In this document: piece by piece, positions 5,173 to 59,213 of the stretch
Layout: every line of letters begins with the position of its first letter
Numbering within the stretch: the stretch's first letter is position 1
Assembly: GCA_019059635.1 (NCBI GenBank)
Contig: JAGVRJ010000001.1
Coordinates: 2,170,001 to 2,234,000 of the forward strand
Direction: 5' to 3'
Length of the DNA: 64,000 nt
From: Proales similis
Taxonomy: Eukaryota > Rotifera > Eurotatoria > Ploima > Proalidae
Notes under the pieces: model-generated
The model's input: only the letters and a program-made list of their open reading frames with translations
Database searches by the model: none
What the model was told of the DNA's origin: nothing
Program-made: the position numbers and the translations under genes

Positions 5173-5238
5173 ATGGCCGATCAGCAGGCGTTTAAACTGG
5201 GAGTTGTGGCCGGCGCCGGAGCTTTCATAGTCTTCTCG
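5001..5238 (+). repeat. Direct repeat copy 1: SPFH 5' UTR and start of exon 1
   Basis: About 240 bases nearly identical to 6115-6352 (same order, offset 1114). They include the pyrimidine-rich leader and the first codons of the SPFH gene. A second matching block lies further upstream (4870-4955 against 5830-5915, offset 960), so copy 2 carries about 154 extra bases between the blocks. This is a tandem duplication of a promoter and first exon. Confidence 0.9.
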
Positions 5239-6286: not shown

Positions 6287-6352
6287 ATGTCCGACCAGCA
6301 GGCGCTTAAACTGGGAGTTGTGGCCGGCGCCGGAGCTTTCATAGTCTTCTCT
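6115..6352 (+). repeat. Direct repeat copy 2: SPFH 5' UTR and start of exon 1
   Basis: Partner of 5001-5238. This copy leads into the intact gene. The two copies differ by only a few substitutions, so the duplication is recent or has been homogenised. Confidence 0.9.
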
Positions 6353-33050: not shown

Positions 33051-36000
33051 TTAGTACTGTCGGTTGGGACGGAATGTCTTGGCAAAGTGGTCCTCCGATG
33101 ACTTGTGATACGTCTTGTGAGAGCAAAGAGCAAATGAATCAAATGGGCAAACAAAGCATTCGGACGGAATTTACCTTTTCAATCGCTTTGGTCAGGCGAT
33201 CGACTCGGTTAGGGAACAAGTCAACATAGTCCTTGTAGGCCTCTGCTTGCTTTGTTGGACTTTGCTCGACGTGACGCGACGACATGAACGGCAGCACGCT
33301 GAACAGCGATTTAATGTAGTTGAACAGTTCGGGATCTTCATGGTCAAGGTGGTGACTGTCCTTCTTTACGTCATTGTAGTGGTCGGTGAGAATGGTGAGC
33401 AGCATGTTGACGAGCACAAACACCACAAGCAGGTTGTAGACTATGAAGAGAGTGACGCCGAAGAAGGCGTTCGCCTCGATAAGCTGCTTGACCTCGAACT
33501 TGCCGAGCACCATCTGAAAGCAGGTGGCCATCGACTTGACCAGAGTGGGGAACTGCGTCGAGTTGACGTTGAATATTATGTAAAAGGTCTGCACCAGACT
33601 CATCCAGAACACAAAGAACACGATGCCGAAGCTGACCAGCTCTTTGAGACTTTTTTTGAACGCGAGCATGTAAATGATGATCTTCTTGTTGAACCTCAGC
33701 AGCTTGATGAAGCGCAGCGTGCCGAACGCAGCGCAAAAGCCCAGCGAGAAGCCGAGCGCCTCGTTGCAGTACGTGATGTACTGCAGTCTGATCTGCGCGT
33801 CGGTGCCGTGCTCCTCGAGCTCTTTGAATATTTTGTGCGACGAATAGAGCCGGTAGAGATACATGGCGAACGCGGCCCACGAGAAGCCGATTATGACCAG
33901 CTCAATGTAGTTCCAGAACTGCGTAAAGTACTTTTTCTTCTCTTTGACTATCTGCCGCGTCTCGGTGACCACAAAAAACACGATGAACAGAATGTAGAGC
34001 AGATTGCAGATCACCTTGAACGACAGCAGCTCGGTCTTGACGCTCATCATGCTGATCGGCTCGAAGCGCGCCGAGGCCACCATCGTTCCGGTCGGCAGCA
34101 GCTCGAACAATATCGTGCAGTAGGCGAACAGGTTTATGTTGACGTTGAATACGGAGAACTCGATGAAGACCGATCGAGTCTGCCGGTCGATCCAGCCACT
34201 GCTTTCCAATAGCTCAAAGTCTGAGACTAGATTGCTCTTGTTTGCCTTGCTGTCGATTCGGTAAACGTAGCCGCCGCCCATGTAGGTGGTGTAGATTCCG
34301 CCGTAGGGAACACCGTCAATGTCACTCGACGACGTGTACTGGAACGCCTTGTAGACCTCGGCCTCGTTTGGATCGGGCACGTAAGAGCTGTTGTAAGACG
34401 ACCAGCCGATGCCGTACATCTCCTTCTCCTCTTCCAAAGCCGAATATTCGTCGGTGCAGGCCAGATACTCTTGCTTGAAGCCTTCGTGTAGCTTGCACGA
34501 GTCTAATTCGAAGAAAAGATTTGAGTAAAAGACTGTTCGGGGAAATTCGAACAAACGCCAAACAAACCTCGTTCAATACGATTTTGTCTGAGCAGTGGCT
34601 TGCCAATCATCAAAGAGGCAATGTCGTGAATGTGCTCTCGCTCTAGAGCGCCATTGTAATACGTTTCTTTTAAAATCATGCTCACAAAGTCATCCTTGAG
34701 ATAAGTCCAAATGCCGGCGATGTTTGATACTGAACTGTGTCCTTGGAATAGGCGAGCAACGCCCTTTTTGTAATTGAAGGAGTTATTGTCCTTGTTCGAG
34801 TAGGCGACCGTGAACAGAACCCAGAGGAAGAGCAGATTGAAAAAGAGCTCTTTGAGCAACTGCTTCGAACGCTTCCTTTTCAGCTGTTGAGTTTTTAGCT
34901 CTTGGAGCTGCTCTTCAGACATGTCTTCGTGTCCGAGCAGCTTCGACTGAGTGGCAGCTGCTGACTCCGCGCTCAAGTAAGCCGGACGATTGTACTTGTT
35001 GAGCGCCTTCTCGTCCTCTTCCTCAATGTCGCTCTTGTCGTCTGACTTGCGACAGACAAACACCAGAATGAAGGCGACGATCGCCACCTGCAACGGCTGC
35101 GTCAAGAACACCGAAGTGAGGAACGAGACGAGAAGCGACGTGATCCATTTGGTGACCTTGTCGTTGCCGAACGAGATGCCCTGCACCAGAATGAAAAAGA
35201 GCGAGACGGCGGCGATGACCGCCGACAGCACGTAGGCGATTATCTTGACCCACCAGGGAAACTTGAGCTCCTTCTTCTCTTTTTTGGTCTCGGCCTCGAT
35301 CATCTGCTCCTTGTCTTTGAACATGTCGTTCCTGGTCTGCTTCTGCAGCTCATCCAGCTGCTTCTTCAGCTTGCTCGTTCTCGTCTCGCGTCGTCTAGAT
35401 CGCCTGAACAGCTGCACGAGAAGAAAGCTGGGCGGGAATATGATCAAGCTGGTGATTATTCCGACGCTCACTTGCGCCGGCGTGAAGTTGAACGGGCCGA
35501 TCTCAAGGCCGTTTGACTTGGCCGAAGTGTCCGTGCCATAGTACAGAATGTTCATCATCATGGTCATGCAGAGCAGCACAAAGCAACAAGTCAGACGGTC
35601 GAGACGAGTGAACGAGCTCTGCACCGGCCGAGCGAACACCGAGAACCAGAGGTGGCCATCGCTCAGCTTCTGCTTGGCCTGTTTCTGCAGCAAGTACCTG
35701 AACTGCGTCTTCTGCGCCTCGCCCGCAGCCGCCAGGATTCGATTTATCATTCCGTCGTCTTTGTCCACGGCCAGCCACCGGTCGCAAATGAAATACTGCT
35801 TCTCTCTCGTCTGCAGGTCGTGCACAATCACGAACTTGAGGAACCAGCCGGCGCTTCCCGCTCGGCCCGAGTTGTCGTGCCACACCTTCAAGTTGGTCAG
35901 GGTGCCCAGGGGCCTGCGAATTTCGAGTCAGATCAGATGATGCAAAGAGGAGAAGGCCGACTACTTACTGCTCTGACGCGTAAATGAACGAATCGACTCC

Positions 36001-39000
36001 GCCACGTCTGAACGGCTTGCGTCCTTTGTCCTTGAGCTCGAGCACCTCGGTCTCGGTCTGATCGGACGAGAGGATGCAGCTGACGTTCGAGTCGGTCGCT
36101 GCGCCCCTGCGTCCACTGGTGAAGAACATGAGCTCGTAGAGATAGAGCGAGTCGAAACCGGCTGCAGCTTCAGCGTTGATCAGGCAGATGCCCATTTTCT
36201 TCTTGTCTCGCTGGTCCTGCACTCGCGCCCAGATGGCCAAGATCACAAACAGGCAGATTATGCCGATCACTGTGGCGTATATGGCCGGATTGTCGAGCGG
36301 ATTGGCGTTGGCGAACACGTACTCAAAGTCGATCATGGGCGGCAAGACCACCCAGCCGCCCGCAAACGAGGTCAAGTGATTGGCCTCGCAGATCGTTTGA
36401 GTCAGGTTCGTGCCTTCAAGCACCTCGACTCCGTACGAGCTCCATGAGGCCGAATCTTCGTCCCAGTAGTAGCAGCCTGCGGTGTACAGCCGCACTCCGA
36501 AATCGGAGCTAAAGCTTCCGTTCGAAGGCTTTGCGTCTCGTGCGATTTGAAAGTCAACTTGAGACTTGCGCGAGCAGTTCATCCTTTGCACAGTTTCTGC
36601 ACTCAGCTCTTTGATCGCAAAGCCGACGAGGCCTTTGTAGCCGCCGATTTTGGCCATGTTGGCAAAGTAGACATAAAACTGCTCACCCAGCTCTTCATGA
36701 AGATCTACATACGCCAATTTTATCGGCCGCGGCTCAATTGGCCGAACTAGAGAGACCTACCTGAAGGACAGAGGATCTTGTAGTCCTCGATGTCTGAAAA
36801 AGAGCTGTTCAGCAGCGGAGTGCTGCCTCGTTTCATGATCACCAAATAGCCGAGCGAGTAGTTGTAGGGTCTGATGTTGACGTGCAGTGACACGTTGGCG
36901 CCAGTGATGAGCACTCCATTCGGCAAATAGTGGTTCCTGTCGCTCATGTCCAAATAGGTGGCGTTCACGTCGACAAACTCAAGCGTCGTGTTGGACGATG
37001 AGTAGGAAATGTCCTTTTCGATGACAAACTGAAACTTTTGCGCAGTGTCCTTCACTTTGATCTCGTTGCGCGTCTCGTCCAAAAAGCTGAGCGACACTTG
37101 CTTCGAGTTGCCGATGAACGCCTCCGTGTCTCCGTTGGAGCCTGTGACTGCGTTCGCCAGCACCATGCTCTGAACACGATCGCATCAGATTGAGCTCATT
37201 CGACTCGTCAGTGCGCCTACCTGCTGAGTGATGGTTCGACTCGAGCAGTCGCCGTTCTCGTCTTTGACCAGATCACAGATGGGCGGCATGCTGATGCCGC
37301 CGCCCTGGATTTTTATCTCTCGCTCGATCTCCGAGACGTTCTTCTTGACGAAGCTGGCGTTCATCGACGCGGTTTTAAGATCAGTTGCCTGGTCGCTGGC
37401 CAAGTGAAGTGAAATCATTTTCGACACTTGGTCCAGCATGTGCTTGGTCTCTCCAGAAAACGACATGATCTATTCAAACAAGTTTAAATAAATGCTATTT
37501 GAAACGAACAAATGGTTCAAGGGCGAGTACTTTCTCCTTTTGCTCTTTGATCGCTTCGGCTGACGAAGGGAATGAGATGAATGAGAGCGATGGACGAACG
37601 ATTTGCATCGATTCACTTACTGATATTGCCGGTGTTGTCGCTCTCTAAGAATTGAGAACGAGCATTGAGAGGCGCACTCAGGCCCTGAATTGGTTTAGAA
37701 TTCAAATTCAATTCAATTTTATGCAGCGAATGAGATGAGTGTTGAGCTCTTACGATAAGCGAGTTGGCGATCGAGTCTAGTATGCCACTCACGCCTTCTT
37801 TAACGTCCTCGAGCGAGGCCTTGTCACCGACCTGGGCCAAACTTTCAACCATTTCGGAGCATTTCTTCATGGCGATGCTCTTCGAAATGCCAGCATTGAT
37901 GAGGTTTGCGAGGCTCTTGTCAACAAACTTTGACACTTACCGCCGAGCTGCGCGACAACTGCTCCGTTTTGACGGTGGTCGCCGACAGTGCGGACGCGAA
38001 TACTTTTATGCTGCTCATGTCGGTGATGGGCATCTCGGCCAGCTTGTTCACAAAGTAGTCTCTCATATTGGCTCGTCGGGTCCTGTTCTGCTCAAGTTCT
38101 GTCTCGTTGGCGCCGGCTACGACTTCTTCAGGTTTGTTAAACTCAGTGGCCAGACCGATCACGTTCTTGGCCACTGCGCCCAGATTGCCGCTGTTGAGCG
38201 ACGTGAGCGCTCGAGAGCTCGGGTCGTTGGCGAGTATGCTGGTGACCATTTGATCAGCCAGCGATGGATTGGGCAGCACTTGCACCGGGTTCGGTATGTG
38301 GTAAATTGTTCGTCCGTAAGAGTCGTCGATTATGTTCACATACAAGTAAATGTAGTGATTGTCCGACTCGGGGCCTTCGGGCAGCTCGACACTATAAACT
38401 CCGTCCGAATTGAAGTCCAATACGAGCGGGTTGTAGGCGCCGTCGTAGGTGGCTTTGTTCAAGTTAAATGATAAAATCGGCGCCTCGAGTGACCAGGTAC
38501 TTGTTGTGCTTACCAAAGTACTCGTAGCGGGCAATGTAGCCGTCGGTGTCGATCCAGTTTTCGCATCGAATCTCGAACGTAGTGTCCAAGCTCACGCCTT
38601 GGTAGACGTGAGGATAGCAAGTGCCGTCCATTGGCAAGCTGTTGATTTTAAAGTCCACAAGAGAGGAGCCTGTCACTTGGCCGTTCAGGTTGATGGTCAG
38701 ATTCACTCGCCAGAATATGACTTCTGAATAATTGCTGAAAAAGTCCGTGCTGAGAATGAACTCGGGCCGATTGAAGTCTGACGAGTCGAGATCAGAATGA
38801 AAAAGTGCAAAAAAAAAGGGCAAAAGTGAGAGGCAGACTAAAAGGCTGACCTTTGACTTGCTCGAGCGGATCGTCGAACAGCTCCCACTCGAACTCGCCC
38901 GGACCAAGCTCGGTGCCGTTGAACAGCTGATACGAGTAGATCAGCGAGTCAGATTTGCGACATCCCTCGGCGCATTGGCCGTCTATGATCAGCTGCGAGC

Positions 39001-42000
39001 TCGGGTTGATCAGACTGTAGTACGGATAGGGGAAGCAGGTCTTGGGTAGACGACATCTAATTTGCAATTAAGATTCATTCGAACTGGCCCGATTTGGCTC
39101 AGTGCGGTCAGTGAGACTCACCCGAGTGCTACGATCGGCAAGCTAGAGAATAGATCGATTCGAATTTGAATTGTCTGCGCGAAAGTGCGGCCCATGTAAG
39201 TGGTCTCGATCCTGAATTGGTAGACTCGAGCGACAAAGTAGCGCAGGAAGAGAATGACGAGTCGATTGCCGTTCGCCTCCATCGTGTACTCGTCTGAGAG
39301 AGATGGAACTTGCTTTTAAAAAGAGAGAGAGAGAAGAAACTCAGTCTAACTTACCGAGTGCATGGAAACAAGTCTCGTTAAAGTTCATTGGCCAGTTGTT
39401 GGTGAAGTATGAGTTGAGGTCACCCTTGGGCGCTGAGACATTCGTGCCCAGGTTGGGATCAATGACACGGCAAAAGAACCTGAAGCTCAGAGAGCTCATG
39501 TTCATCATGTTGTCCAGATCGTAGGAGAATTGCTGAGGGTTCAGAACGACTTGTTGGCTGCTGCCGATCAAGAGCCGATTGAGGCCGTCCTTGAGCGCTT
39601 GAATAACAAGGCCAGTGGGCATAACTTGAAAGAAGGTGTCCACTTCGCTGGTGACTATGTCTTCTTTGTTGTAGATAATGGTCACCAAATAGACGGCCTT
39701 GTACACTCCGTAGGGCATCGAGTTGGCGGCAATGACCAGCTCGGGACCGGTCGAGGTCGGGTTGTCGGCCAAGTCGATCTCCTCAATGAGCTGGCCGCTA
39801 GTGTCCACTCTGAACAATGTCCAGTTGCGCTCCTGGCGAAACAGAGTCGTATCGCAGTCGATCATTGTCATTGTGCGCAGATTGATTGTGTTCGATCTGT
39901 TGAACTGCTGCGGACTGATGACCTTGAAGCGACGATCAAAGCCCACTCTGGGCTTGTTGCATCGGTTGCCTATTGCGAGCAGATTTTAAAGTGGCACAAA
40001 GTGAAACGAGGCCGCACTTTGACCAACCTCGAATGAATATCAGATCGGTCAAATTCTCGCCTCGACTCGGCACCATCACGGTCATTCTGTATGAGCCCAG
40101 ATCGGTGTATTGGCGTTCGAATCTGATCGATCGTTCGCTGATTGCCATGTTCTGCACAACGCCGTCGCCGTAGTCGATGGTCACGTGAAGCGTTTCGCCA
40201 ATCAACGGATTGAGCGAGAGCACACAAGCAACCGGTCGATCGAATGCGGTCTCGTTCACGCAGTCAATGCCGTAGCTGATATCTTTTTTGGCGTCACGCT
40301 TCAGCTGAGACTCTGCAGACTCTTTCATGCAAACTTACAATTTATCTTCTCGAACCGGATGCCGTCCAGATCGCCGCATCGCAGCGCCGAATTGCCCGGA
40401 CACAGTCGATTGCAGCTGGCGTAGGTCAGCGCCTGGAAATAGTTTTCGACAAGGAACTGCTCGTCCTTGTGGCAGTAGCAGTTGCTTTCAAAGAATTGAG
40501 ATTACATTTCAATTGTTGCAAGTCGCAATCGGCTCGCTTACAATCGACGCGTGCCGGCGTACAGGTAGCCAAGACTGAAGCATTCATAGACGCAGGTGGC
40601 GTTCGTCATTAGATCGTCTCTGAACATAAAGTCGTAGCGGAGACTGGCGTCGGCGCAGTAAATGAAATCGGTCGTGGTCAAGATCTTGTCTTGATTACAG
40701 CTCGCTCTTAAGCCAGACAGTGAGAAGAGAGAGAGAGAGTAGAGCGTAACTTACTGTGAATCTCCACACTTTGACTCAGCATCAGATCGTACGCTTCAAT
40801 GTAGGCCTGAACCAAGTAGACGCCCACGTCCTCGAATTTGTGCGTGATGTTGTTCAGGTCGGTGCCGAACGACAGTGTTTGGTTGGTGCCGTCGCCGAAG
40901 TAGACTTTGACCGCCAGTGTTAGGCCGGCCGTATTCATGTTCACCTGACAGACCAGATTGGAGCTGATGTTTACGAACGGCGGACACTTCATGTAGAAAC
41001 CGTCGTCTATTGAACGTGATTAAAGCAGACAGCATGCAGTGCCATTCACTTAATTGAACTCACAGCTCAGCGAGTTGAAGCGGACTCTGTCGCCAGCGCC
41101 ACAAAGCTCTGAGCTGTCGCCTTCACACGGCACATTGCAGAGCGGGTCTGTCGACTCATACACTCCTTCTGTCAATCGATAGTCGTTTGCACAGTGACAA
41201 GTGCTGTTGGCGTCGATTTAATGCGGCTTGAAATTTGAGCAAAACACGGTGCAAACTGAAACGCTCGCTTACCTGTTTGACGAGCCGGCGTAGCCGTATC
41301 GACCTTCACTGCACACCCTCACACATTCGGACTCACTAATCCAGTCGACTTGTATGCTCTGGTCGAATATGAGCTCTTCAATGCCACACGAGTAGAACTG
41401 AGTGGACCGCAGCCGTTGGTCTATGCGAAACGAGATTGACCTCTGAGAGAGCTGTTGAGACTAGTGGTGATAAGATCGGCTTACCAGTAACCGACACATT
41501 GTGCGTAATCTTTTCGTTCTCCAACGAGAAAGTGATGCTCACAACGCCGACTTGAACAGGCCGTGGTTTGACAGTGATCACTTGGTTGGTGTTGCTGAAC
41601 GACAACGTGCTACTCGTACCGTCGCTCATCTCCATTTGAACGTTGGCTGTGAATACCTCGCCGAACACGGAATAGACTTGAACCACACACTGTAGCTCGG
41701 TGCCGAGAATGACGTCCGTCAGATCGCAGTAAGCATCAAACACACCATCTAGTCATTTTTGTTAATGAGCTGATTCGATTTCGTTTGAATGCCAGTCAAA
41801 GACACAGAGAGACAGAGTTAGAGAGAGAGAGTGAGAGAGAGAGAGAGAAGAAAATGCCGATTACTTACAAATGAGACGATAAGCCCGAATGAAGTATTCA
41901 TCTCCACACCGCTGAGCCGCATTTCCCGGGCAAGGTTCTCTGCAAAATTGACTGTTGGAGTTGATCGCATTTCGAGAGAAACCGGTCTCATCGTTTGAAC

Positions 42001-43158: not shown

Positions 43159-44606
43159 TTAGACTGTGCGAGGAGCAGCGTTCAGATGTTCATTATTGAT
43201 CGACGGCTGCTGTGCTTGGCTTGGCTGTTTTTGATCTTGCTGTCGATGCTGCTGTTGTTGTTGATCCGGCTGACGTTGATCCGGCAGGTGTGGTTGTTGA
43301 TTTTGCTGAGGGTGCTGTGCGTCGACAGGAGCCATCGGAGTTGTGTTTGGATGCTCACTGGCCATCTTTTGTTTTTTTAATCGATTTTCAGCTTTCAAGT
43401 TTGACTAAATGAGATAAGTAAAGAAAAGCAGACTTACATGAGCCTTTGAATATCGCTCAAATTCGTTTTGATCAAATGCAGGCAAGTCCTCGACACTCTG
43501 GCAAACACACAATAGAGCTTTAGGTCTTTTCTAGGACTTTAAAAGTTTGCAAACCTTCCACTCCTCGTTCTCGTTGAAATCTGTTCGCTCGGTGGCCTTG
43601 ATGAATTCGTCTCGACTAATCAGACGGTCCTTGTTGGTATCGATCTCGGTGAAGACATGCTGGCGCATTCGTTCGGCCTCTTGCTCTCGTTCGAGCGGAT
43701 CGTAGAGCGGGTCTGATTTGTTGAAGATTTTGTCGAGCTCTTTTTGAAACAGCGCCTCGGTCTCGAACTCGTCCAGGTAGCCGTCGCCGTTCAAGTCTTT
43801 GACACGTCAATCGAACGTCAAGCGAACGAGACCGGCATCGGAGATGGCAACTTACCGTGAAGGGCGAAGAACGTGCGCGGGTCGAACTGTTCGGGCTCGA
43901 GATGATCCTCCTCTTGCCAGACCTCCTCGAGCTGGTCCTTGCTGCCCGGATGATTGACGCGCTCGTGATGCTTGCGCTTCTCCATCTGCTCTTGGTATTC
44001 CCTTTCGGCTCTCGCTCTCTCTTGCTCGTCCATGTCCTGCAAGTGGCGTCGGCGTTCGTACTCTTTTTGAATTTCGTGCTGCTTGAACTCCTCTTGTCTG
44101 ACCTTGTCCATTTGCTCTAGGTCGTTGGTCGCCTGGCGAATGAGCCGCTCCAAGTCGCGCACCTCGAACGTTTCCACATTCTCGTGATCAATGTGCTTGG
44201 GCAGCAGATCTTCGACCTGATGCGGCTTGAGATCGTTCAAGGCCGCCCTGCGCGATATCAGCTGCCGCAGGCGTTCAATCTCTTTCCTCTTCAGCTCGTC
44301 CAGTTGAGTTCGAACGTTGTGATGCACAAAGTCCAAGTTGGTGGCGATGCGACCCGACTTGATATCGTCGACACTGGCGTTCTCGATCAGACTCTTGAAC
44401 TTGGGATCTGTCTCGAGCAAGTTGACTACCTCGCGCAAATACTTGTTGTACTCGAGTGCCAAGATCTTGTCGTCGTCGGCGTTGTTCTTGTTGTTGTCCG
44501 GCTGTGCCTCTTGGCCCGGATTGACGGGCGGCGACACGATTCGGCCAACGTTGACCATGAGCAGCGCCATGCTCAATAAACAAAAGAAACGATGAGATTC
44601 GCACAT
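43159..44606 (-). CDS. NUCB: Nucleobindin (NUCB1/NUCB2, calnuc/nesfatin family)
   Basis: Four exons, 44606..43856, 43796..43555, 43497..43438, 43404..43159, give 432 aa. Nucleobindins are Golgi/secretory calcium-binding proteins that also bind G-alpha subunits. A signal peptide (RFFCLLSMALLMVNVG) is followed by the nesfatin-like region (LEYNKYLREVVNLLETDPKF, SGRIATNLDFVHHNVRTQLD), a basic/coiled-coil segment, and two EF-hands: DLNGDGYLDEFE (about 251-262) and DTNKDRLISRDE (about 303-314), both with full acidic ligand sets. The linker with EWKSVEDLPAF is typical. The C-terminus is a Pro/Gln-rich tail. ATG at 44606 was chosen because the frame upstream starts only at TTG and the ATG gives a good signal peptide. 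It lies between the two polycystins, upstream of A on the same strand. Confidence 0.94.
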
Positions 44607-45833: not shown

Positions 45834-48664
45834 TCAAACACCGTAGAGCGCCGTGATTCGCTGTTTAAGTTGAGGCGGCACTTGGGCGAAAAACTGCTCC
45901 CAATTAGAGTCGCCCATTTGCATTTTGAATCCGTTTAGAATCTTGAGAGAAGAAGCTCTGGTTCAGCGCTGGACTCAGATTTCGAGCAGAGGCGCGTGCT
46001 TACCTTGACGAACATTTCTTTGAGATCTGGCTTCGGGTTGGTCCAGGAGGCGATCGCGTCGCAAAAGAACACAAAGTCGTTTACTACACCGGCCGGATTC
46101 ATGCTGATCAAGTGACAAATGCCTCTGAACGCCGACTCCTTCTCTTCGTTGTCCCTGATCGAGCGCAGAGACGAGCACCAAACGCGAATGAACGAGGAGA
46201 GGTAGGGCGAGATGAGCTGGGGACAGACGAGTCCGATGCGGCCGATCGTAATCGCCGTGTTCTCCAGCAGCGTTTTCGGCGTGTTCGCCTTGTTTATGAT
46301 CTCAATGAGCGGTTCGATCAGAATTGTGGCATAGCGCTCCATGTCGGCGCCGAGCTGAATGGCGATCTCGCCGATCGCCCAGATGGCGTTGTTGCACACG
46401 CTGATGTGCTGCATGTTTAAATTGAGTCGAAGTAGAGGCATGAACTCGTCCAGGGCCGAGCGGAGACAGGCGAAGCAGGTTTTGCTCAGGTCGCCGAGCA
46501 GAGCGAACGAGCTCTGTCTCACCTCGGCCACGCTGTCTTTCATGCAGGCGTGAAGAAGAGGCAGCAGCTCGCTGTTGCTCAGTAGCGGCAGAATGCACTC
46601 GCCCAGGCCCTCGGTTAAGCCGGAGAGAAGGTCGAGCGCCACCACCATAAAGTCCTTGTCCGGATATTCGTGCTGGTCTGGCTGGCGTGCGTTCAGCTCT
46701 GTATGCTCCAGAGTGTGCTTGATCAGAGACAGGCACCGTTTGAACACCGGCTCACAATAAGGCCCGAAGCCGCCCTGCAGAGCAGTCGCCACGCTGCTCA
46801 GACACTCGAACAGCGGGAACAGGTTCTTGTCCTCGTCTTTCAGCATGTTCCATTTGTCGATGAGCGGCGGCATCAGCTTTTGGATGTAGTCTTCACGATT
46901 CAGATGAGTGCCCACCGAGTCGGCCAGTGTGCCCACTGCGTCGTACAATATGAGCAGGTTCTTTGCCTGGTATTTGGTGAACGCCACTGCGAACGTGTCC
47001 AAGATCTGGCCCAAGTACGGAACGAGCTCGGTGGCGGCCTCCTCTTCGAGAGTGGCGAACGCCGAGCAAGCGGCCTCTTGAACGCGCTTGTTGGCGTCGA
47101 TCACTCTGGCAAGGAGCTGAAACACCATTGGCTGGAGAAAGGCCTCTGCTGGCTGATGCACAATCCAGTGTGCGTAGCGGCTCAGAGTCCAACAGGAGAT
47201 GGATCGAACCAGCGGCTTTGAATCGGCCAGTGACTGAACTAAAAACGGAACGAGCTGAGGTAAGTGTGCAATGAGGCCGTTGTAGCAGCCTTCAGCGATG
47301 GCGCCAAGCACCAGGATGCCGCTCTCGCGCACCTCCCACGCCGAGTGCGAGAGCGCTTCGTTCAGAATCGGAAGCAGACACGGCAGCAGGTCGTCTTTGA
47401 ACACGTTCGACAGCGTGTCCAGAGTGGCGGCCGAGCATTTGCGCAGATTCCATCCACTGGCCAGATCGTCGTCGAATGCCGCGTCGTCGTCGCCACCGTC
47501 GTCGTCGTCGTCGTCGAGGCCGCTGGCTGCCTCACCGGTCTGATCGCCCATCATACGGCTCTTGTGAAAGCGAGGACGAATGTCCTGCTCTCTGTCAGGC
47601 TGACTGGCATCTTCGGCGTCGCCCTTGAGAAGAATGATGTCAAGCTCCGAGTAGCGCATCGACTTGACCAGAACCGGTATGAGTTGACCAATGTGCGGTT
47701 TGAGCACTTGAGCGCAAATGGGCTGTTCGGCCAGAACGAGCCAGAACTCGCAGGCCTCGAGTGCGACCGACTCGTCTTCGTCCTGGGTGCGCATCAGCAT
47801 GTAGACGACCACCGAGTCCATGTGCGGCATCAGGCTGTCCGGTCTGACTTCGAGCAGCATCACGAGCGCCTTGCACACATGCTTTCTCACCTCGAGATCA
47901 GTGTCGTGGGCGAGCGCAAACAGACTTTCAATGAACGCGTTCATGTTGTTCATTAGCGCCTCGCTCTTGAAGCCGATGAACTGGTTGATGCAGGCGATCG
48001 CGTGCGATCGAATTTTGGCGTTCTGATGCGCAAAGAATTGAATGAACTTTGGTATGAGAATGTCGAGCGGCTTGTTGTTTGGCGACGAGTTGTTGGCCAC
48101 TTCCAGCTGATCGCTCGAGTCTTCACAGATTTTCTGCAAGGCGCCGAACGCGCCCTCGCACCGCGTGTACTCGCCCGAGTCCAAGTGAGCGCACAGAGCA
48201 GGCAGCAGATCGGGCCATTCATTCAGGCCCGACTTGCTCACTATGGTGGTGATCAGAATGCCGATCGTGGCCCTTATCAGCTGACTGGAGTCGCCGATGG
48301 ACGCCAGACACTCTCGCTTAATGAACTCGCGGCACCAGGGCACAAAGCTTTCAAACGACGATTTCACATTGTTCTTCAATATCAGGCCGCTGATCGAACG
48401 AGTCGCTTCGTCTTGCTCGCCCATTTTGGTCATCACAAACACCAGGTAGTTGTTAAAGTCCGGATGGTTGTTGAACTCTTCCAGTTTCTGCGTTCGCTGT
48501 TTAGGACAGTTTGTGCAAATTTGCAATTTGAGACTCACTTTTCTTATGTTCGCCTGGACTAGATTGTCGGCCGACTGCGACTCTCTTAAAAGCTGAATGA
48601 TTTGCTGCAGACCTTCGGCTTGTGGTCTCCATTCTTGTTGCCCCATTTGTTCGTTCATTGTCAT
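45834..48664 (-). CDS. TNPO1: Transportin-1 (karyopherin beta-2)
   Basis: Three exons, 48664..48539, 48487..46004, 45941..45834, give 905 aa (human about 890-898). Transportin imports PY-NLS cargo such as hnRNPs into the nucleus and releases it on RanGTP. About 20 HEAT repeats cover the length. Family blocks include [69 protein letters not shown]-like and [18 protein letters not shown]. The acidic H8 loop is present as an Asp-rich run ([17 protein letters not shown]). The C-terminus ALYGV is as in vertebrates. The first intron (48488-48538) is 51 bases long and has no in-frame stop; an acceptor 9 bases earlier would add three residues (RTQ), but the chosen one matches human spacing. It lies between the polycystins. 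Confidence 0.96.
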
Positions 48665-49871
48665 TGCGCTCTACTGAATTGATCGAACAATCACGCGAAC
48701 GGCACGATCAGACCGAGAGGGAGGCTACCGACCTGCGCAGCTTGGCATTACCTTTCGCTAAGGGCGGCTTGCTTGAATAGAGGGAAAAGACTTTGTCTGT
48801 GCCCCGTCTGTCCTTGGTTTTGCTTTGAATCTTCCTTTTGCCTCTTGTTCTCTCTCTCTCTTTTTCTCTGTTTGTCTATTAAACTCGATGTTTGGCTTCG
48901 CCCAATTCAGTTCGGTTCAACTCTCAGTTCTACAATCGGCCAGAGGCGAGCAAGCGGATCAAGTTGCTCTTTGTGGATTTTCGATAAAGAAATGTAAAGT
49001 TCTATGAAATGCATCAAATCGCTGCTTGCATTGCAGGCCTCATTCAACCAATTCGGCTTTAATGTAGTCGCATTCAAGCTGCGATAAGCATGTTTGCCTG
49101 CACTCGTTGCGCAACTAACTTTCCATGAGCCGTGAGAGGCGGCATTCGTCTCCGCCTCAGAAGCTGCTACTGCTGCTGCATGCTCGCAAACGCCAATTTC
49201 CATTCTCAAGTCTGATTTCTTCCGATAAAGCTGTTTTCTTTATTTCGTTTCGCCTTCCTCTCCGCTTTGTCCGCATCAACTTTGAAACGAGTCAAATTAA
49301 CCAGAGATCGAAAAATTTTAAAAAAGGATCAATAGTCAAAAGGAGTACCCTTCAGAATGCAACCACTCCCTGTGGCAATTTTCAGCTTGGCTTAAGCTAA
49401 CAATAGAAATCCATAAATTATTTCTCAAGTTGTCAGTGTTGACCTTGCTCGGTTGCACAACCGACTCTGCAAAAGAAAATAAAAAAAAAAATCCTGAGGA
49501 AATGTTTGAGATCGCCTGGAGGTGTCAAACATCGAACATTTTCTATCTAAATGTAGAAAATAAAACGTATCAAGCGTGCTAATGTTTGTAGAGCCACTTG
49601 TATTTACTTTTGGCTTTCATTCGAATTCAAGCTTTTCTCTTGCTCCCTCCTATGTCATGTCAGACATGGCATGCAAACAAACCACGGCGAACATTGACGT
49701 TGAATCGACACCAGAGCAAACAAGCATTTCGTTGTGATTTCAATCGCACAAATAGAAAGACTGTCTCAAGAAAGCGCAAGACGCAGAAGCGTCGCCTATA
49801 TTTACCACTTGATTTGATCGAAACTGCCTCATTTAGAAACAAGAACCTAAAAAAGCAAGCAGTTCTGATCG
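48665..49871. other. Divergent intergenic region, transportin and polycystin B
   Basis: 1207 bases between ATGs pointing apart, so both promoters should be here. AT-rich near 49400-49560. ORFs present are short and without coding character. Confidence 0.55.
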
Positions 49872-52800
49872 ATGAAAAAGCGTCAATTCTCTTATTGCCT
49901 GATTGCATTGGCCGTTTTATGGCTGAGAGCATCAGGCGCCCCGATCACGGCTCCAGGCAAGCTTTCAATTTTATTTCTAAATCGTGACCACAGTTCTAAT
50001 CGTTGGCAATTGATAGAGCCAATTTTCTTGGCCACCAACTACACGGCGTGTCTGGCGGCCAATTCAACTCACCTAACTCCCCTCTATCCGGGCGGTTCTA
50101 GCACTTTGACCAGTGCAAAATGCGCGTCAGACTGCCACGCCGATGGACACTCTTATTCGGCTACTCTTGATAAGTATGCGAATTGAGTTCAAACTTTTGG
50201 AGTCTTTTTTCCCAAACAACCATTTGTTTGCAATCAAGTGATTGCTATTGTCTGGACGAAATAGCGAATGCGAACGACACATTGGATATGGAGAATAGTG
50301 ACTGTAATCGTCCTTGTCCTGGCAATTCTTCTCAATCTTGTGGACGCTTCGATTCACTTCGAGTGGAAGAAATAATCGGTGAGTCGCACTCCTTTCTCGG
50401 CTTTAGCAATCAGCTTGATCGATTGAATCTAGTCGGCAATGTGGTGCTCGACTGCAATCAAAACAGTCTGCCGATCGGTGGCAGTCTGACGTGTCAAGTC
50501 AGAGTGACTCCCTCTTCGGATGCGGAGTTCGCAATTACCGGCGTCCTTGACTTTGGCGAAGGCACCTCGCACACGCTTGGATTCAACGAGAGCACCAATT
50601 CGCATACAATTCAGAACACGTTCAACGTTATGGTCAACTGTATCATTCGTTTTACAGTGGGCGGGCAGACATTAGAGCACTCACTAACCATCAACGGTAA
50701 TCTCCTGTCTATTCGACTCGTGGACCTCACTGAGCTCAGCTGGGCGTTCTTTAGACAAGGTCTATCATTCTTACAGTCACTACGCATGCGTGCCACGCGA
50801 AGTCACATATCAGCATACGAGACCTTACACCGAGAGAAATCGAGAAGATAGATGCGCCGCCTATTGTGGTGCCCGCTTTTACGCATTCTCGGCCACTCGA
50901 GACCGGTAAGCCAGAACACTCAGGCTCGCACTGGCCTTAGGTAAATTCTTGCCAAGGGACTGCTACTGCGACAACAACCCGAACAAGATGAAATCGAACA
51001 TTCCCCTCAACACGTCAGACTGTAGAAGTGGTTGTGAAGATTGGAGGCCTGACATTTATTGTGGACGCCGGGATGTGACTCGAGTCAACGTGTTGAGATG
51101 TAATAAAATCGCCCTAGAGCCACTCGGCAGAAAGAATGAACGATTTTTAAACAATAGACGTCGGATTTGCGCTGAATTGTCCAACATTCCACAACATCAC
51201 TCAGACGTTCCAGTGCCAGCTTCAAGTCAACAACCAAGGCGGCACCATAGACGTGGAAATCTCATATGGAGACGGCACGCCCACTGAAAACATCCAAATG
51301 AACAGTCCGGAGCGCAACATTCAGCACACGTTCGGCTACACGGGTTTCTTCACCGTCACGGTCTACGTGCCCCGTTACAATCTGAAAATGAACCAGACGG
51401 TCGAAATTCACTGTGAGCTTTTTGGTCATTTGTTTGCGCTTGAAAGCTTGCTGAACGCTGTCATGTTTCAGACAAGGTGCTGGTGGGCACAACCTACAGC
51501 TACTGTTCGAATAGAGCGGACAGCTTCGAGCTGTCGTTTGCTCTTCAAACAAGGACTAGCTCGAGTTGTGTTTCGGAATGCTTCGTCTTGAATTACGACT
51601 ACGCCGGCACCAGCGAACCGTAAGTGCGAGCACAATTGACATTTAGAATCGGCAACAAAACAGGCCCCGCTAATCTGATCACCTTGTTTGCATAGGCTTT
51701 GCTTTTGCACCAAGAACAAGACGCTGATTGAGCAGAACACTTTTCAATCGTTGAACTACATTACTTGCAGTGTGTTGTGCACCGACTCGAGCAGCGAGAG
51801 ATGTGGCTTTGGCGAAGTGATTCGCTTCGAGAAACTCAACTGTAAGTCTAATTCAGAAGGCGATTTGATTTGATGCTGAATTTGTCGCTGCAGACATTAG
51901 CTATGGACTCGACTGCCCGAATGACACGGCGATCGACAAGCCACTTGAATGCCGTCTATCGCTTAATCCGGTTACGGGCCAAGTTCTTGTTGTTGAAATC
52001 GACTACGGAGACGGCTATAACCAGACTCTGAACATCACCGAACGATCAGTGGTGATTTCCAAGATGTACAACTCACTCGGCCAATACAGAGTGGACGTGT
52101 TCGTGCCCGAGCGCAACGAGAGCTTCTTTGACATAATCTACATTCGAGGTTTGTGGCAAATGCCGTTCAAACGAGCAAATGGGTAAATTGGTGTCTTGAA
52201 GGAAACCGGTGTGTGAAGCCCAAAATCGGATTCACCAAACGCTACCCGCCCGAGGCTCCGCAGCGCTTCAATCGGTCCGAAATACTGAATTTGAAGACGA
52301 TGACCTTGATTGAATGCGACACGAACCGGTTCACTCAGATGCGAAACTGGACAATGTTCTTGCTCGACTCTAATCTCACGGAGATAGAGGAGGTGAACTT
52401 GACCACGAGCTCTATTCCGAACGGGCCCGAGCTCAAGCTGGCGGAGAACATGCTCGTTTATGGCCTGTACCGTGTCACCTACGAGGTGACCATATTTTAC
52501 AATGAAGACGACCAAGTGAGCAGCACTGTGGACACGTACGTGCAAATAGACGCAACCGGCATTGTTGTTAACGGGCTGGAAGGCGGCACCAAGAACATTC
52601 TGATCGGAAGCAGCCAAAGCTTGAGTCTGCGACCGTCCAACTACTCGATCGACTTTGACGAGTTCGTAGACATGAGCACGCTTGAGTTTGAGTTTTTCTG
52701 CCGCGTGCGAGACAACGGCATTCCATCGCGTCCAGTCAGCCAGATGATCAGTCTGTTGGAGTACAAGCAGAACCCGGTGACCAACACGTCCTCGAACGAG

Positions 52801-55800
52801 ACCATCGCTCGATACACAATGGACTATCATGACACGTGCTTCTTGAGTCCAGGTGAGAATCTGACTGCTCGTGATCGGTCGCCGCTCCAATTGACTAAAT
52901 TCAATTGATTGCTCTAGACGAGTACGTTGTGGACGAAGGCTCGCTCGAGATTCTGGCCACCTCACTCCGCTACTACCCGAATAGAATCTACGAGTTCACC
53001 ACCAAAGTGTTCTACATGAATCGAACATTCACCGAGATTGTCAACGTGGTCATCGACGCGCGAGCCAGTGTGCCCATCGTTCGACTCGGGTAATTTTGTT
53101 CAAAAAAAGTAATTTGTTGCAGAGCGGCTCGATTAAAACTGCGCCTGGTGTCACTAGATGTCGCCTGCCAAAGACCTGCTATCCTTACCCGTTGTACAGT
53201 CTGATAAATCCGAGCTCTCAGCTCATCGTGCAGAGCTCGTGTGCTCTCGGCTGCAATCCGTCTGATAAGCTCACTTATCAGTACTACATATACAACGGAA
53301 GCTACAGCGGTGGCTCGCTTGTCTGGTCCCATTTTCCCGATCACCTCGGCCTTCTCGGAGGTGACTCAACAGCCCGATTCGTCCAATATCTCGATTCTAA
53401 TCTCATCGAATAGTGACCACTCGTTCTGAGATGACCCTAATGGACACGTTCTTCAACAATTACACTTCGATCGCTTTCTGGCGAGTGCAGCTCTACATGA
53501 CCCTGAACGATCTATTGACTGGTAAGGCGCCAAATCCGCTCAGCTCAGTACTACTCGATCGCATTCGATTCCATGTAAACAGGCACGTCCAGTATGGATT
53601 TTAAAATAAACGCGTTGCCCACCGGCGGCTCGTGCTACTCTCACACTTACCAGGGCGAGAGTTTGAAGACGACGTTTGAGATCCGCTGCGTGAACTGGTA
53701 CGACCCAGACGGCTACATTGCTCGCTACGAGTATTTCGGTAGGTCGATCTGATCCAGACTCAAACCCTAAACCCTAAAGACTCAAAGCGGATTGTCAACA
53801 AAAACTGAAGCCAACTACAAGGGCAATTACAACCCGCTTGTGCTCGACTACAACAGCCAGGGTGTGCTGAGCATCGAGCTGCCGCAAGGGCCCGAGGACG
53901 ACAACTACATGATTTACATTTTCATTAACATTCTGGACGACTCGAACGGACGAACCGTGTACCGCTTGCCGCGCGGAATCAAAGTGCAGCCGAGTGCGAG
54001 TTTGGTCGATGATCTGGCCAGCGCCATACTCAGCAATGACCCGTCGTCGAAAGCGCTCACCTCGTTGAGTAGCGGAAATTTGGGCACCGTGGCCAAGAAC
54101 GTGATCAGCATCAGCACTCAGTTTAACTTGCAGAGGCCGAGCGTAAACGCGTCTGCCGAGGAGACGAGCAAGAAAGCCAACTTGCGCGAGTTCTTCATCA
54201 ACAGGCTGAACGAAATGCCGGTCAGCGACATGAGCAGCATAAAAGTGTTCTCCTCTGCCCTGTCGACAACCACAAACAAGAACGAAGAGTTGTCCCGAAA
54301 CTCGGCGGTAAATTGCCAGAAATCTCACGATTCGCCAGCTGTCGCCTAATTCAGACACGAATAGGACATGGCGTTGAAAAAGTGCTCGGAAATGGTGGAG
54401 AACTTGGCCAGAGTGGCGGCCAGGAGTTCACTTGCCGATTTGACCGAAGGAGTGAGCGGCATATTGGACTCAATGGCTAATTCTCTCATTGTAGGCATTT
54501 TCTCTTCTCCTCTTCCGATCAATTCCCTTCAACTCGTCATACAGGGTCTCAGTGGTCCACTTAACGCCCGGTCTGACTTTTTGGTTAGCGACTTGAACGG
54601 TGATCCGGGTAAATTTGCTCGCCAGAGTGTGCACTCAAATCGATCTAATCTCATTTCATTCTGAATAGTTGAGGCGGCCAATAAACAAAGAGAAAAGGTA
54701 ATTTCTAATTTCAATCCGATTTGAATTTCAACAATGATTGATAAAGCATTTCGCTATTTAGATTATTGCATCAGCGCCCCAGACAAAGAAAATGCTCGAC
54801 GAGATAAACAAAGCGATCTCACTTCATTTGGCCAACGACCAGTCGACAGAGCTCAAGTCTTCTTCAATGAACGCCAGCTTCGTCAAGAAGAACGTCTCGG
54901 AGATCGAGCGAGAGATAAAAATCCAGGGCGGCGGCATCAGCATGCCGCCCATCTGTGATCTGGTCAAAGACGAGAACGGCGACTGCTCGAGTCGAACCAT
55001 CACTCAGCAGGTAGGCGCACTGACGAGTCGAATGAGCTCAATCTGATGCGATCGTGTTCAGAGCATGGTGCTGGCGAACGCAGTCACAGGCTCCAACGGA
55101 GACACGGAGGCGTTCATCGGCAACTCGAAGCAAGTGTCGCTCAGCTTTTTGGACGAGACGCGCAACGAGATCAAAGTGAAGGACACTGCGCAAAAGTTTC
55201 AGTTTGTCATCGAAAAGGACATTTCCTACTCATCGTCCAACACGACGCTTGACTTTGTGGAAGTCAATGCGACTCATATGGATCTAAGCGACCGAGGCAA
55301 TTTCCTGTCAAACGGCTTGATGATCACGGGCGCCAACGTGTCCGTGCATCTGCACATTCAGCCGCACGACTACTCGCTTGGCTACTTGGTGATAATGAAA
55401 CGAGGCAGCACTCCAGTTTTGTACGGCTCAACGGCAGACTACGAAGACTTTTCAATCCTTTGTCCCTCTGGTAAGTGCTCAAAGTGAAAGCTCTCCTGTC
55501 TGTCTATGGTCAACGATCTCTGCGTTTGACAGATCTGAAGAACGAAGGCGGAGAGCTGTTCTACCTTTATTTTGCCAACATGAGCAAAATTGCCGGTCAC
55601 AAGGGCTTGGTTGGCTTTGCGATAAAAGAAATCTCGTCCCTAGATCTGACCAGTATAGACTGCACTCGCAAGTCAATTGAGGATATGGAGATTGCTCGTA
55701 GATCGAAGCCGCTGAATGGCAGCTTTAGCCGGAACTTTGCTATGCGCATATTCACAGCTGGCTGCTACTTCTGGGACGACAACACGGCCACTTGGAGCTC

Positions 55801-58800
55801 ATACGGAGTCGAAGTGCTTGAAGGCACGAACCTGACTCACACGATCTGCGAGGCCAATCACTTGACGTCGTTCGCGGGCGGCTGGGTGGTCTTGCCGCCC
55901 ATGATCGACTTTGAGTACGTGTTCGCCAACGCCAATCCGCTCGACAATCCGGCCATATACGCCACAGTGATCGGCATAATCTGCCTGTTTGTGATCTTGG
56001 CCATCTGGGCGCGAGTGCAGGACCAGCGAGACAAGAAGAAAATGGGCATCTGCCTGATCAACGCTGAAGCTGCAGCCGGTTTCGACTCGCTCTATCTCTA
56101 CGAGCTCATGTTCTTCACCAGTGGACGCAGGGGCGCAGCGACCGACTCGAACGTCAGCTGCATCCTCTCGTCCGATCAGACCGAGACCGAGGTGCTCGAG
56201 CTCAAGGACAAAGGACGCAAGCCGTTCAGACGTGGCGGAGTCGATTCGTTCATTTACGCGTCAGAGCAGTAAGTAGTCGGCCTTCTCCTCTTTGCATCAT
56301 CTGATCTGACTCGAAATTCGCAGGCCCCTGGGCACCCTGACCAACTTGAAGGTGTGGCACGACAACTCGGGCCGAGCGGGAAGCGCCGGCTGGTTCCTCA
56401 AGTTCGTGATTGTGCACGACCTGCAGACGAGAGAGAAGCAGTATTTCATTTGCGACCGGTGGCTGGCCGTGGACAAAGACGACGGAATGATAAATCGAAT
56501 CCTGGCGGCTGCGGGCGAGGCGCAGAAGACGCAGTTCAGGTACTTGCTGCAGAAACAGGCCAAGCAGAAGCTGAGCGATGGCCACCTCTGGTTCTCGGTG
56601 TTCGCTCGGCCGGTGCAGAGCTCGTTCACTCGTCTCGACCGTCTGACTTGTTGCTTTGTGCTGCTCTGCATGACCATGATGATGAACATTCTGTACTATG
56701 GCACGGACACTTCGGCCAAGTCAAACGGCCTTGAGATCGGCCCGTTCAACTTCACGCCGGCGCAAGTGAGCGTCGGAATAATCACCAGCTTGATCATATT
56801 CCCGCCCAGCTTTCTTCTCGTGCAGCTGTTCAGGCGATCTAGACGACGCGAGACGAGAACGAGCAAGCTGAAGAAGCAGCTGGATGAGCTGCAGAAGCAG
56901 ACCAGGAACGACATGTTCAAAGACAAGGAGCAGATGATCGAGGCCGAGACCAAAAAAGAGAAGAAGAAGCTCAAGTTTCCCTGGTGGGTCAAGATAATCG
57001 CCTACGTGCTGTCGGCGATCATCGCCGCCGTCTCGCTCTTTTTCATTCTGGTGCAGGGCATCTCGTTCGGCAACGACAAGGTCACCAAATGGATCACGTC
57101 GCTTCTCGTCTCGTTCCTCACTTCGGTGTTCTTGACGCAGCCGTTGCAGGTGGCGATCGTCGCCTTCATTCTGGTGTTTGTCTGTCGCAAGTCAGACGAC
57201 AAGAGCGACATTGAGGAAGAGGACGAGAAGGCGCTCAACAAATATAAGAGACCAGCTTATTTGAGCGGCTTGGGGCATCTCGCTCAGACAAGAATGAACA
57301 ACGGAGTCGAGGACATGACTGAAGCAGAGCTAAAAGAGCTTAGAAGGACCCAACTGAAGCGCACTCGTGCCAAGCAACTGCTCAAAGAGCTCTTTTTCAA
57401 TCTGCTCTTCCTCTGGGTTCTGTTCACGGTCGCCTACTCGAATAAGGACAATAACTCCTTCAATTACAAGAGGAGCGTATCCGGCCTGTTTGAAGGACAC
57501 AGTTCAGTATCGAACATCGCCGGTATATGGCAATGGCTGAGCGACGAGTTCATCAACCAGACCCTCAAGGACAGTTATTACAACGGAAAAGTCGAACAGA
57601 AGCACATGTTTGACTTGGCATCGATCGTGATCGGAAAGCCGCTTCTCCGTCAGAGTCGCGTGGAAATCGGTGGGTTTTCGGCCTGTTGCCTCTAACCGTT
57701 CATATTATTGATGAATTTTGTCGTAGACTCCTGCCAGCTTCACGAAGGCTTCAAGCAAGAATACCTGCCCTGCACAGACGAGTTCTCATCGCTCGAGGAA
57801 GACAAGGAGAAATACGGATTTAATTGGTCTCCGTTCGACAGCTCTTTTGCGGTGCCTGCTGGCGAAGAGGACATTTACAAGGCGTTCCAGTACACGTCGT
57901 CGAGTGACATTGACGGTGTTCCTTACGGCGGAATCTACACCACTTACATGGGCGGCGGCTACGTTTACCGAATCGACAGCAAGGCAAGCAAAGCATCGCT
58001 GGTCTCCAAGTTCCAATCGCTGGAGAACTATGGCTGGATCGACCGGCAGACTCGGGCCGTATTCGTCGAGTTCTCCGTATTCAACGTCAACATAAACCTG
58101 TTCGCCTACTGCACGATATTGTTCGAGCTGCTGCCGACCGGAACGATGGTGGCCTCGGCGCGCTTCGAGCCGATCAGCATGATGAGCGTCAAGACCGAGC
58201 TGCTGTCGTTCAAGGTGATCTGCAATCTGCTCTACATTCTGTTCATCGTGTTTTTTGTGGTCACCGAGACGCGGCAGATAGTCAAAGAGAAGAAAAAGTA
58301 CTTTACGCAGTTCTGGAACTACATTGAGCTGGTCATAATCGGCTTCTCGTGGGCCGCGTTCGCCATGTATCTCTACCGGCTCTATTCGTCGCACAAAATA
58401 TTCAAAGAGCTCGAGGAGCACGGCACCGACGCCCAGATCAGACTGCAGTACATCACGTACTGCAACGAGGCGCTCGGCTTCTCGCTGGGCTTTTGCGCTG
58501 CGTTCGGCACGCTGCGCTTCATCAAGCTGCTGAGGTTCAACAAGAAGATAATCATTTACATGCTCGCGTTCAAAAAGAGTCTCAAAGAGCTGGTCAGCTT
58601 CGGCATCGTGTTCTTTGTGTTCTGGATGAGTCTGGTGCAGACATTTTACATAATATTCAACGTCAACTCGACGCAGTTCCCCACTCTGGTCAAGTCGATG
58701 GCCACCTGCTTTCAGATGGTGCTCGGCAAGTTCGAGGTCAAGCAGCTTATCGAGGCGAACGCCTTCTTCGGCGTCACTCTCTTCATAGTCTACAACCTGC

Positions 58801-59213
58801 TTGTGGTGTTTGTGCTCGTCAACATGCTGCTCACCATTCTCACCGACCACTACAATGACGTAAAGAAGGACAGTCACCACCTTGATGACGAAGACCCTGA
58901 TCTTTACGAGTACCTTAAATCACTGTTTGCCAGCTTCATGCCCGTGTCGAGCTGGAGAGACAAAATCGACGCGCCCAAGGACAACCATTACTATCGTGAT
59001 GTGGTCTCCATCTTGCCTGTTCGAGTCAATTCGCTTGTCTACAAGGTGCAGAAGGTAAGCAGCCTTTGTCCATTCCTCTTTGCTTCTCTCAGCCTCTCAT
59101 GAAACCAATCGAAGGCATATTTCCGCAAAGATGATTTCGAAACCGGCTTTGCTCCTCTCAAAGAAGAGGAACAGCCGCAAGTAGACGATTCGGACATTGA
59201 GAGCAGCGCCTGA
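49872..59213 (+). CDS. Polycystin-1-like receptor/channel B (inverted paralog of A)
   Basis: 24 exons: 49872-50173, 50239-50378, 50433-50696, 50755-50905, 50957-51099, 51158-51412, 51472-51619, 51696-51841, 51894-52148, 52202-52852, 52918-53089, 53158-53360, 53414-53521, 53583-53738, 53811-54307, 54365-54490, 54545-54608, 54669-54697, 54762-55010, 55062-55470, 55533-56268, 56324-57669, 57727-59054, 59115-59213; 2658 aa. Architecture follows gene A: signal peptide (YCLIALAVLWLRASG), three WSC-like/PKD pairs (to about 601), REJ-like region, GPS-like site (CYFWDD, CEANHLTSF), TM1, PLAT, polycystin domain and pore helices with MVLGKFEV. Differences: no Thr-rich mucin stretch, one extra intron (between 53521 and 53583), diverged ectodomain, and an acidic C-terminal tail (QVDDSDIESSA) where A is basic. 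Exons from 54365 to 59054 have exactly the same lengths as in A. Nothing is truncated, so it should be functional. Confidence 0.9.
53765..53778. repeat. Two CCCTAAA telomere-type units in an intron
   Basis: The intron between exons 14 and 15 of polycystin B (53739-53810) contains CCCTAAA twice in tandem. The corresponding intron of gene A lacks it. Confidence 0.85.
54867..55252 (+). repeat. Inverted homology block 1, polycystin B copy (stalk)
   Basis: Partner of 36979-37364; equal length, no indels, includes an identical 51-base intron. Confidence 0.95.
55818..57241 (+). repeat. Inverted homology block 2, polycystin B copy (GPS, TM1, PLAT, linker)
   Basis: Partner of 34996-36419. Protein differences are only a handful (such as Gln/His before CEANHLTSF, Glu/Lys in KEKK(E/K)LKFPWW, Val/Ile in YVLSA(V/I)IAAVS). 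The 55-base intron inside is identical. Confidence 0.95.
57876..58885 (+). repeat. Inverted homology block 3, polycystin B copy (channel core)
   Basis: Partner of 33344-34353. Identity breaks off sharply where the C-terminal tails begin (HHLDDEDPD here, HHLDHEDPE in A). Confidence 0.93.

Follow-up and report, generated by a model that had tools for sequence, protein, structure and literature searches.

In this study, we analyzed a stretch of 64,000 nucleotides of the rotifer Proales similis (C1:2170001-2234000, hereafter the window), in which two polycystin-1-like receptor genes of opposite orientation, A and B, consist of nearly identical tracts set in strongly diverged sequence. Very probably A and B are old inverted duplicates, and their near-identical tracts arose by interlocus gene conversion between the inverted copies. 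Conversion is the best account because silent sites and introns were homogenised and not the protein alone, and because comparable mosaics are present in a cluster of related genes on contig C3. The genome used here comprises 32,716,893 bases in 15 contigs; the published P. similis assembly is described with 32,722,929 bases, 15 contigs, a GC content of 45.5% and PacBio Sequel sequencing (PMC11954553). The GC content of the window is 49.9%. The two genes and the parts into which their comparison divides them are the following (positions in the window):

33051-41006, minus strand: gene A, polycystin-1-like; 18 modelled exons, 2282 amino acids, open 5' end
51158-59134, plus strand: gene B, polycystin-1-like; 19 modelled exons, 2305 amino acids, open 5' end
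36979-37364, minus strand: block 1 in A, stalk, residues 942-1053; 0/386 mismatches to 54867-55252; includes intron 37170-37220
54867-55252, plus strand: block 1 in B; includes intron 55011-55061, identical to that of A
34996-36423, minus strand: block 2 in A, residues 1220-1677; 5/1428 mismatches to 55814-57241; includes intron 35914-35968
55814-57241, plus strand: block 2 in B; includes intron 56269-56323, identical to that of A
34768-34858, minus strand: small block in A, residues 1723-1753, around transmembrane segment 6; 1/91 mismatches to 57379-57469
57379-57469, plus strand: small block in B (ungapped recount)
34242-34353, minus strand: block 3a in A, residues 1870-1907, polycystin domain; 2/112 mismatches to 57876-57987
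57876-57987, plus strand: block 3a in B (ungapped recount)
34164-34241, minus strand: diverged island between 3a and 3b in A; 28/78 mismatches to 57988-58065
33344-34163, minus strand: block 3b in A, residues 1933-2206, end of the polycystin domain and channel; 4/820 mismatches to 58066-58885
58066-58885, plus strand: block 3b in B (ungapped recount)

A and B were compared by base-by-base alignment, ungapped recounts and a codon alignment over five blocks (1, 2, small, 3a and 3b), from which 7 of 2267 aligned codons, located at block edges, were excluded. Per 100 alignment columns, identity is 0.93-1.00 in the blocks, 0.49-0.83 between them and about 0.45-0.73 in the modelled 5' half, and the block edges are sharp to a few bases, confirming the abrupt edges noted in an initial annotation made from the sequence alone. 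That annotation had also listed three nearly identical blocks. The pair 36979-37364/54867-55252 proved free of mismatches and the pair 34996-36419/55818-57241 carries 5/1424, its extension to 36423/55814 being mismatch-free; this block contains the end of the GPS domain, transmembrane segment 1, PLAT and the membrane core with segments 2-5. The third pair, 33344-34353/57876-58885, is nearly identical in its parts 3a and 3b but is not one block (34/1010 mismatches overall), since the island lies between these parts. The small block 34768-34858/57379-57469 is an addition to the three. When matches were permuted along the gene, none of 20,000 shuffles reached the observed A-B segment score of 269 (shuffled maximum 96).

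In the codon alignment, silent change can be told apart from protein change. Within the blocks, 5/395 four-fold sites differ (99.7% amino acid identity, 906 codons), compared to 65/106 in the 3' half outside the blocks (57%, 455 codons) and 113/194 in the 5' half (52%, 899 codons). The common exon layout proposed for the two genes was found in all 17 modelled introns of A, each of which has a B partner in the same place and phase; B carries one extra intron. Both in-block introns (51 and 55 bases) are identical in A and B, whereas 13 of the 15 non-block pairs lie under two standard deviations above shuffled sequence, the exceptions being A 40485-40541 (about four standard deviations) and A 33114-33174 (about three). 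The pattern by which interlocus conversion is recognised, silent and intron identity within tracts and saturated divergence in the flanks, was therefore observed. Synonymous divergence is thus not uniform, and the divergence that had been described for the 5' half and for the sequence between the blocks holds for protein, silent sites and introns. A single duplication age does not explain this contrast, as the initial annotation had argued in favour of conversion. Copying through spliced RNA was likewise considered and does not explain it; the retained, identical introns in the blocks count against it.

Two further claims held in part. It had been proposed that the transduction parts were homogenised while the receptor head diversified. 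The blocks do cover core and pore, but silent sites in the 3' parts outside them have diverged to the same degree as those of the head (0.61 versus 0.58), and the poorly conserved stalk also contains a block. Conversion had also been described as repeated. Several separate tracts are needed for A and B alone, but repetition is not proven there: the mismatch densities of the main blocks (0/386; 2/1368 for block 2 with three mismatches near one edge set aside; 4/820) are not detectably different (p = 0.155), and the blocks may have arisen at one time or at several similar times. Repetition is shown at the level of the gene family, as described below.

A and B are polycystin-1-like receptor genes of P. 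similis. Pfam domains in the joined A protein are WSC, REJ, GPS, PLAT, Polycystin_dom and PKD_channel. The REJ domain (PF02010, A residues 315-759, E 1.2e-26) is described as a defining feature of the polycystin-1 (PKD1) family (PMC1934368). GPS (PF01825, A 1203-1240) is followed by PLAT (PF01477, A 1321-1429), both over the cut-off, by the polycystin domain (PF20519, A 1764-1971) and by the TRP-like channel (PF08016, A 1976-2198). PDB chains matching the channel exon are those of polycystin-2, PKD2L1 and PKD1L3, and more weakly polycystin-1. Matches to PKD repeats (PF18911 and PF00801) stay under the cut-off in A, and the 5' ends of both genes are open; gene-finder exons of A run on, with less certainty, to about 41635, and B possibly has further exons from about 50288. 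Transmembrane segments, placed solely by hydropathy, appear as 12 peaks in A, two of them overlapping within the polycystin domain, compared to the 11 expected in the PKD1 family. Reading frames are intact across the modelled exons of both genes. Rotifer sequences rank first in the homologue search. A search with the ectodomain (B residues 1-960) gave no homologue at E 0.001 among 7988 candidates scored, and among the best 120 of 309 matches to A residues 1240-1700 most are LOXHD1 PLAT proteins.

The channel exon matches 38 separate places in the genome at E < 1e-30 (from 49 matches), with 2 loci on C1, 11 on C3, 22 on C4 and one each on C5, C8 and C9. Further loci on C10, C11 and C12, found by a Polycystin_dom search, are probably PKD2-type. 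Of the approximately 38 family loci, 19 were compared: A, B, T1-T3, U1-U5, V1, V2, W, X5, X8, X9 and Y1-Y3. T1-T3 (minus strand) and U1-U5 (plus strand) form a cluster at 124-227 kb of C3; V1, V2 and W lie elsewhere on this contig, and Y1-Y3 represent the 3' parts of three of the 22 C4 places. Silent-site segments were tested by permutation at a threshold of 0.05/171 pairs, which 23 of 33 within-cluster pairs passed. Overall silent mismatch exceeds 0.2 in 18 of these, namely A-B and 17 of the 28 C3 pairs (12 T-U, 5 U-U), and outside their two best segments mismatch is 0.48-0.68. The other five are T1-T2, T1-T3 and T2-T3, which are recent copies, Y1-Y2 and Y1-Y3. The ten pairs that did not pass are seven with U4, U2-U3, Y2-Y3 and V1-V2. 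Between clusters, none of the 138 pairs among the 19 genes passed (lowest p 0.026).

The C3 mosaics resemble that of A and B in position. With residue windows numbered on A and per-window values covering pairs with some window below 0.40, four-fold mismatch between T1 and U5 is 0.55-0.78 in ectodomain and linker, 0.07 at 1451-1677 and 0.20 at 1933-2070; it is 0.42-0.44 in two neighbouring windows and 0.68 at 2071-2206. For 1451-1677 and 1933-2070, respectively, the values are 0.10 and 0.07 in T1-U3, 0.12 and 0.07 in T1-U1, and 0.06 and 0.18 in U3-U5. The segments shared among T and U genes are centred on these two windows, the membrane core after PLAT and the pore. Over all pairs, median silent mismatch in the block 2 and block 3b windows is 0.54-0.63, which speaks against codon bias as the cause of the low values. 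Since T and U genes share segments like same-strand genes do, orientation is no bar to the process.

Some C3 genes have peculiarities of their own. V1 and V2 (C3:950-962 kb) form a tandem pair in which 0/759 four-fold sites differ, either duplicated very recently or doubled in the assembly. T2 has a frame break in the channel region near C3:133885 and T1 an in-frame stop in its matched stretch (C3:124571-125926); pseudogenes, unmodelled introns or assembly errors may account for these. Several family genes at 124-227 kb have uninterrupted frames of up to 2221 codons, in comparison to 17-18 short introns in A and B, which suggests that this branch lost introns or contains RNA-mediated copies. 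Beside the cluster, C3:139543-144710 is a tandem array of about six 881-base units that are > 99.8% alike.

Protein trees place the block positions in a wider context. Two sister sequences in the tree, one from Brachionus calyciflorus and one from B. plicatilis, are separated by 0.41 at block positions and by 0.62 elsewhere in the 3' half, compared to 0.006 and 0.64 for A-B and 0.22 and 0.81 for T1-U3; hence block positions are not frozen in general. All three partitions unite A and B with 100% support, and every Brachionus sequence falls outside this group. In DNA trees, the outside data reject both module topologies in the approximately unbiased (AU) test (p 4e-31 and 2e-63). Protein identity across clusters (39 pairs among 10 genes, A and B excluded) is 0.44 at the A/B block residues of the 3' half and 0.26 outside them, a difference that circularly shifted block masks equalled in 1.4% of cases. 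Block 2 has its 3' edge at residue 1677, near the points (1670-1679) where the tblastn alignments of five of the eight C3 genes stop as well, at a variable cytoplasmic linker. At four-fold sites, GC is higher at block positions than in the rest, both in A (0.85 versus 0.70) and in B (0.84 versus 0.66).

Several observations weigh against conversion or narrow what it explains. The outside topology is compatible with the module data (AU p 0.14 and 0.29); with tests that are one-sided in this way, the argument for conversion rests on divergence levels and not on topology. Block 1 (942-1053) has a cross-cluster identity of only 0.27, and constraint alone therefore does not place it. The raised GC at four-fold block positions occurs in 12 of 12 genes checked (uncorrected p < 0.05), including genes without detected conversion, and was thus rejected as a specific sign of biased conversion. 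Within the C3 cluster, the 12 T-U pairs are not independent events because T1-T3 are recent copies of each other, and U4 shows no converted segment in its seven within-cluster pairs. U1-U2 and U1-U3 each have one of their two best segments in the ectodomain (317-445 and 317-526, respectively), so homogenisation is not limited to core and pore. Y1-Y3 on C4 are 0.9-1.0 alike along most of the compared stretch, with local diverged patches; for example, Y3 is diverged from Y1 and Y2 over about 300 bases in which Y1 and Y2 agree at 0.91-1.00. Although Y1-Y2 and Y1-Y3 pass the permutation test, direct alignment shows general likeness with patches, and they were rejected as a repeat of the A/B pattern: the C4 genes are a mosaic of another kind. 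Between X8 on C8 and the C4 genes, silent mismatch drops moderately at 1933-2206, to 0.32-0.41, and this drop is not significant (X8-Y3, p 0.067).

The diverged patches in the three C4 genes look like pieces imported from elsewhere. Near other members of the family, C4:2140426-2140863 contains short family-gene fragments that are 81-93% alike to parts of one C4 gene (L021), and these are probably the remnant of a degraded copy.

Different explanations of the A/B mosaic have to be considered. The blocks are known from an assembly of PacBio Sequel data (PMC11954553), and reads of one copy might have built or corrected the other. Such an assembly or polishing artefact is very improbable, as a step from 60% silent divergence to identity with edges of a few bases is unlikely to come from polishing, and the intermediate divergence of the homogenised C3 modules (about 0.06-0.2) would hardly be expected from it. 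Moreover, blocks of 0.1-1.4 kb are short relative to usual long reads. Strong purifying selection on core and pore without conversion would agree with the tendency of the blocks to match protein regions conserved across clusters. However, the nearly identical silent sites, the full identity of both in-block introns, the high median silent mismatch of all pairs in those windows (0.54-0.63) and the Brachionus value of 0.41 at block positions refute it, unless silent and intron sites were selected in A and B only, and we consider it scarcely credible. Sharp edges would also be expected if A and B were recent duplicates whose other parts had been overwritten from a diverged third gene. This reverse mosaic has next to no likelihood, given that A and B group with full support in three partitions including the one outside the blocks, that all 17 introns of A are shared in place, and that identity to their nearest relatives in the genome amounts to only 46-50% in the channel exon.

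A different question is whether selection retains the core and pore tracts as a common transduction module, perhaps fitting a shared PKD2-type partner, while the heads diversify. Much the same modules were homogenised separately in A/B and in the C3 cluster, and C10, C11 and C12 carry polycystin-domain loci, probably of PKD2 type. However, A and B have diverged no less in their non-block 3' regions than in their heads, homology-limited conversion accounts for the placement by itself, and the three C4 genes lack the same division, so a role of selection appears rather unlikely, if conceivable. It is more speculative still that the approximately 38 receptors are diversified heads on cluster-specific cores which recurrent, orientation-independent conversion under selection keeps uniform, a protocadherin-like arrangement that might serve gamete, mate or chemical recognition; we regard this as doubtful. 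Both proposals were rated lower because the C4 genes do not show the A/B pattern.

Interlocus gene conversion, the explanation preferred here, would operate by double-strand-break repair in which sequence of one neighbour is copied into the other and no crossover occurs. Tracts would start and extend only where the copies remain similar, mainly under strong protein constraint, and would end at fast-evolving linkers, while the heads would escape because they are too diverged to pair. As a consequence, neighbouring receptors would retain a common membrane core and pore and their ectodomains would drift apart. The converted tracts measure about 0.1 to 1.4 kb, introns included. Gene conversion is reported to act mainly above 80% identity (review, PMC3924818). 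Given the tendency of the blocks to coincide with conserved parts of the protein, conversion probably spreads wherever the DNA is kept alignable by constraint.

About 10 kb separate the modelled genes A and B, whose innermost blocks are 17.5 kb apart. Between the genes lie two open frames:

43818-44630, minus strand: NUCB1-like open frame (Pfam PF25434, E 2.8e-43)
45935-48670, minus strand: importin-beta/transportin-like open frame of 911 codons (IBN_N and HEAT/TPR_IMB1 matches)

Elsewhere in the window, 5001-5237 and 6115-6351 form a direct repeat (237 bases, 97.9% identity) next to a weaker repeat of 76 bases (4875-4950 and 5832-5907). A 694-codon open frame at 27213-29297 (plus strand) is antisense to an uninterrupted USP7-like frame (27246-30962, minus strand) and is probably a by-product of codon bias. 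An Rfam search gave zero matches.

Approximately 38 polycystin-1-like loci in an animal genome of 32.7 Mb are notable in themselves, as five PKD1 proteins are reported for human and ten for sea urchin (PMC1934368). A and B offer a clean natural case, in a compact genome, in which silent sites and introns tell conversion from constraint along one gene. With a second cluster, it becomes testable whether conversion merely tracks constraint or selection keeps the core common. For recent branches, family trees built from PLAT or channel domains could mislead. PKD1, the human member of this receptor family, is a cause of polycystic kidney disease. A disease-causing gene conversion event is also reported for PKD1, a gene with pseudogenes; the likeness lies in conversion of a polycystin-1 gene, whereas the P. 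similis pair consists of two genes with complete frames over the modelled exons.

Among known systems, clustered protocadherins may be regarded as the nearest precedent. In fugu, regional gene conversion was argued from silent sites and GC at third codon positions (GC3), and genes of one cluster have > 99% identical 3' parts and diverged 5' ectodomains (PMC1852091). Homogenisation occurs there within and not between subclusters (PMC1852091), similar to the 17/28 C3 pairs and A-B as opposed to 0/138 pairs between clusters. However, the protocadherin genes stand in tandem and are homogenised in the 3' region of a variable exon (PMC1852091), while in P. similis several internal, intron-containing modules are affected, also in inverted genes, with unrelated genes between them, and the receptors are of the channel type. 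Inverted gene pairs of Caenorhabditis likewise combine near-identical with strongly diverged parts in divergent genes, but identity is described there for the 5' ends and the arms of an intergenic palindrome (PMC1803023); in A and B the 5' ends are diverged, internal 3' modules are identical and two other genes lie between. In monogonont rotifers, concerted evolution of a surface-protein family was reported for mmr-b of the Brachionus plicatilis complex, where it involves near-identical tandem repeats within and among copies and not modules of large receptors (PMC3495898). Among the titles of open PMC papers listed by the literature searches, we found no paper on this case. In summary, gene conversion of this kind is already known; none of the listed titles reports it for polycystin-1-like receptors, with internal modules affected, inverted genes involved and more than one site in the genome.

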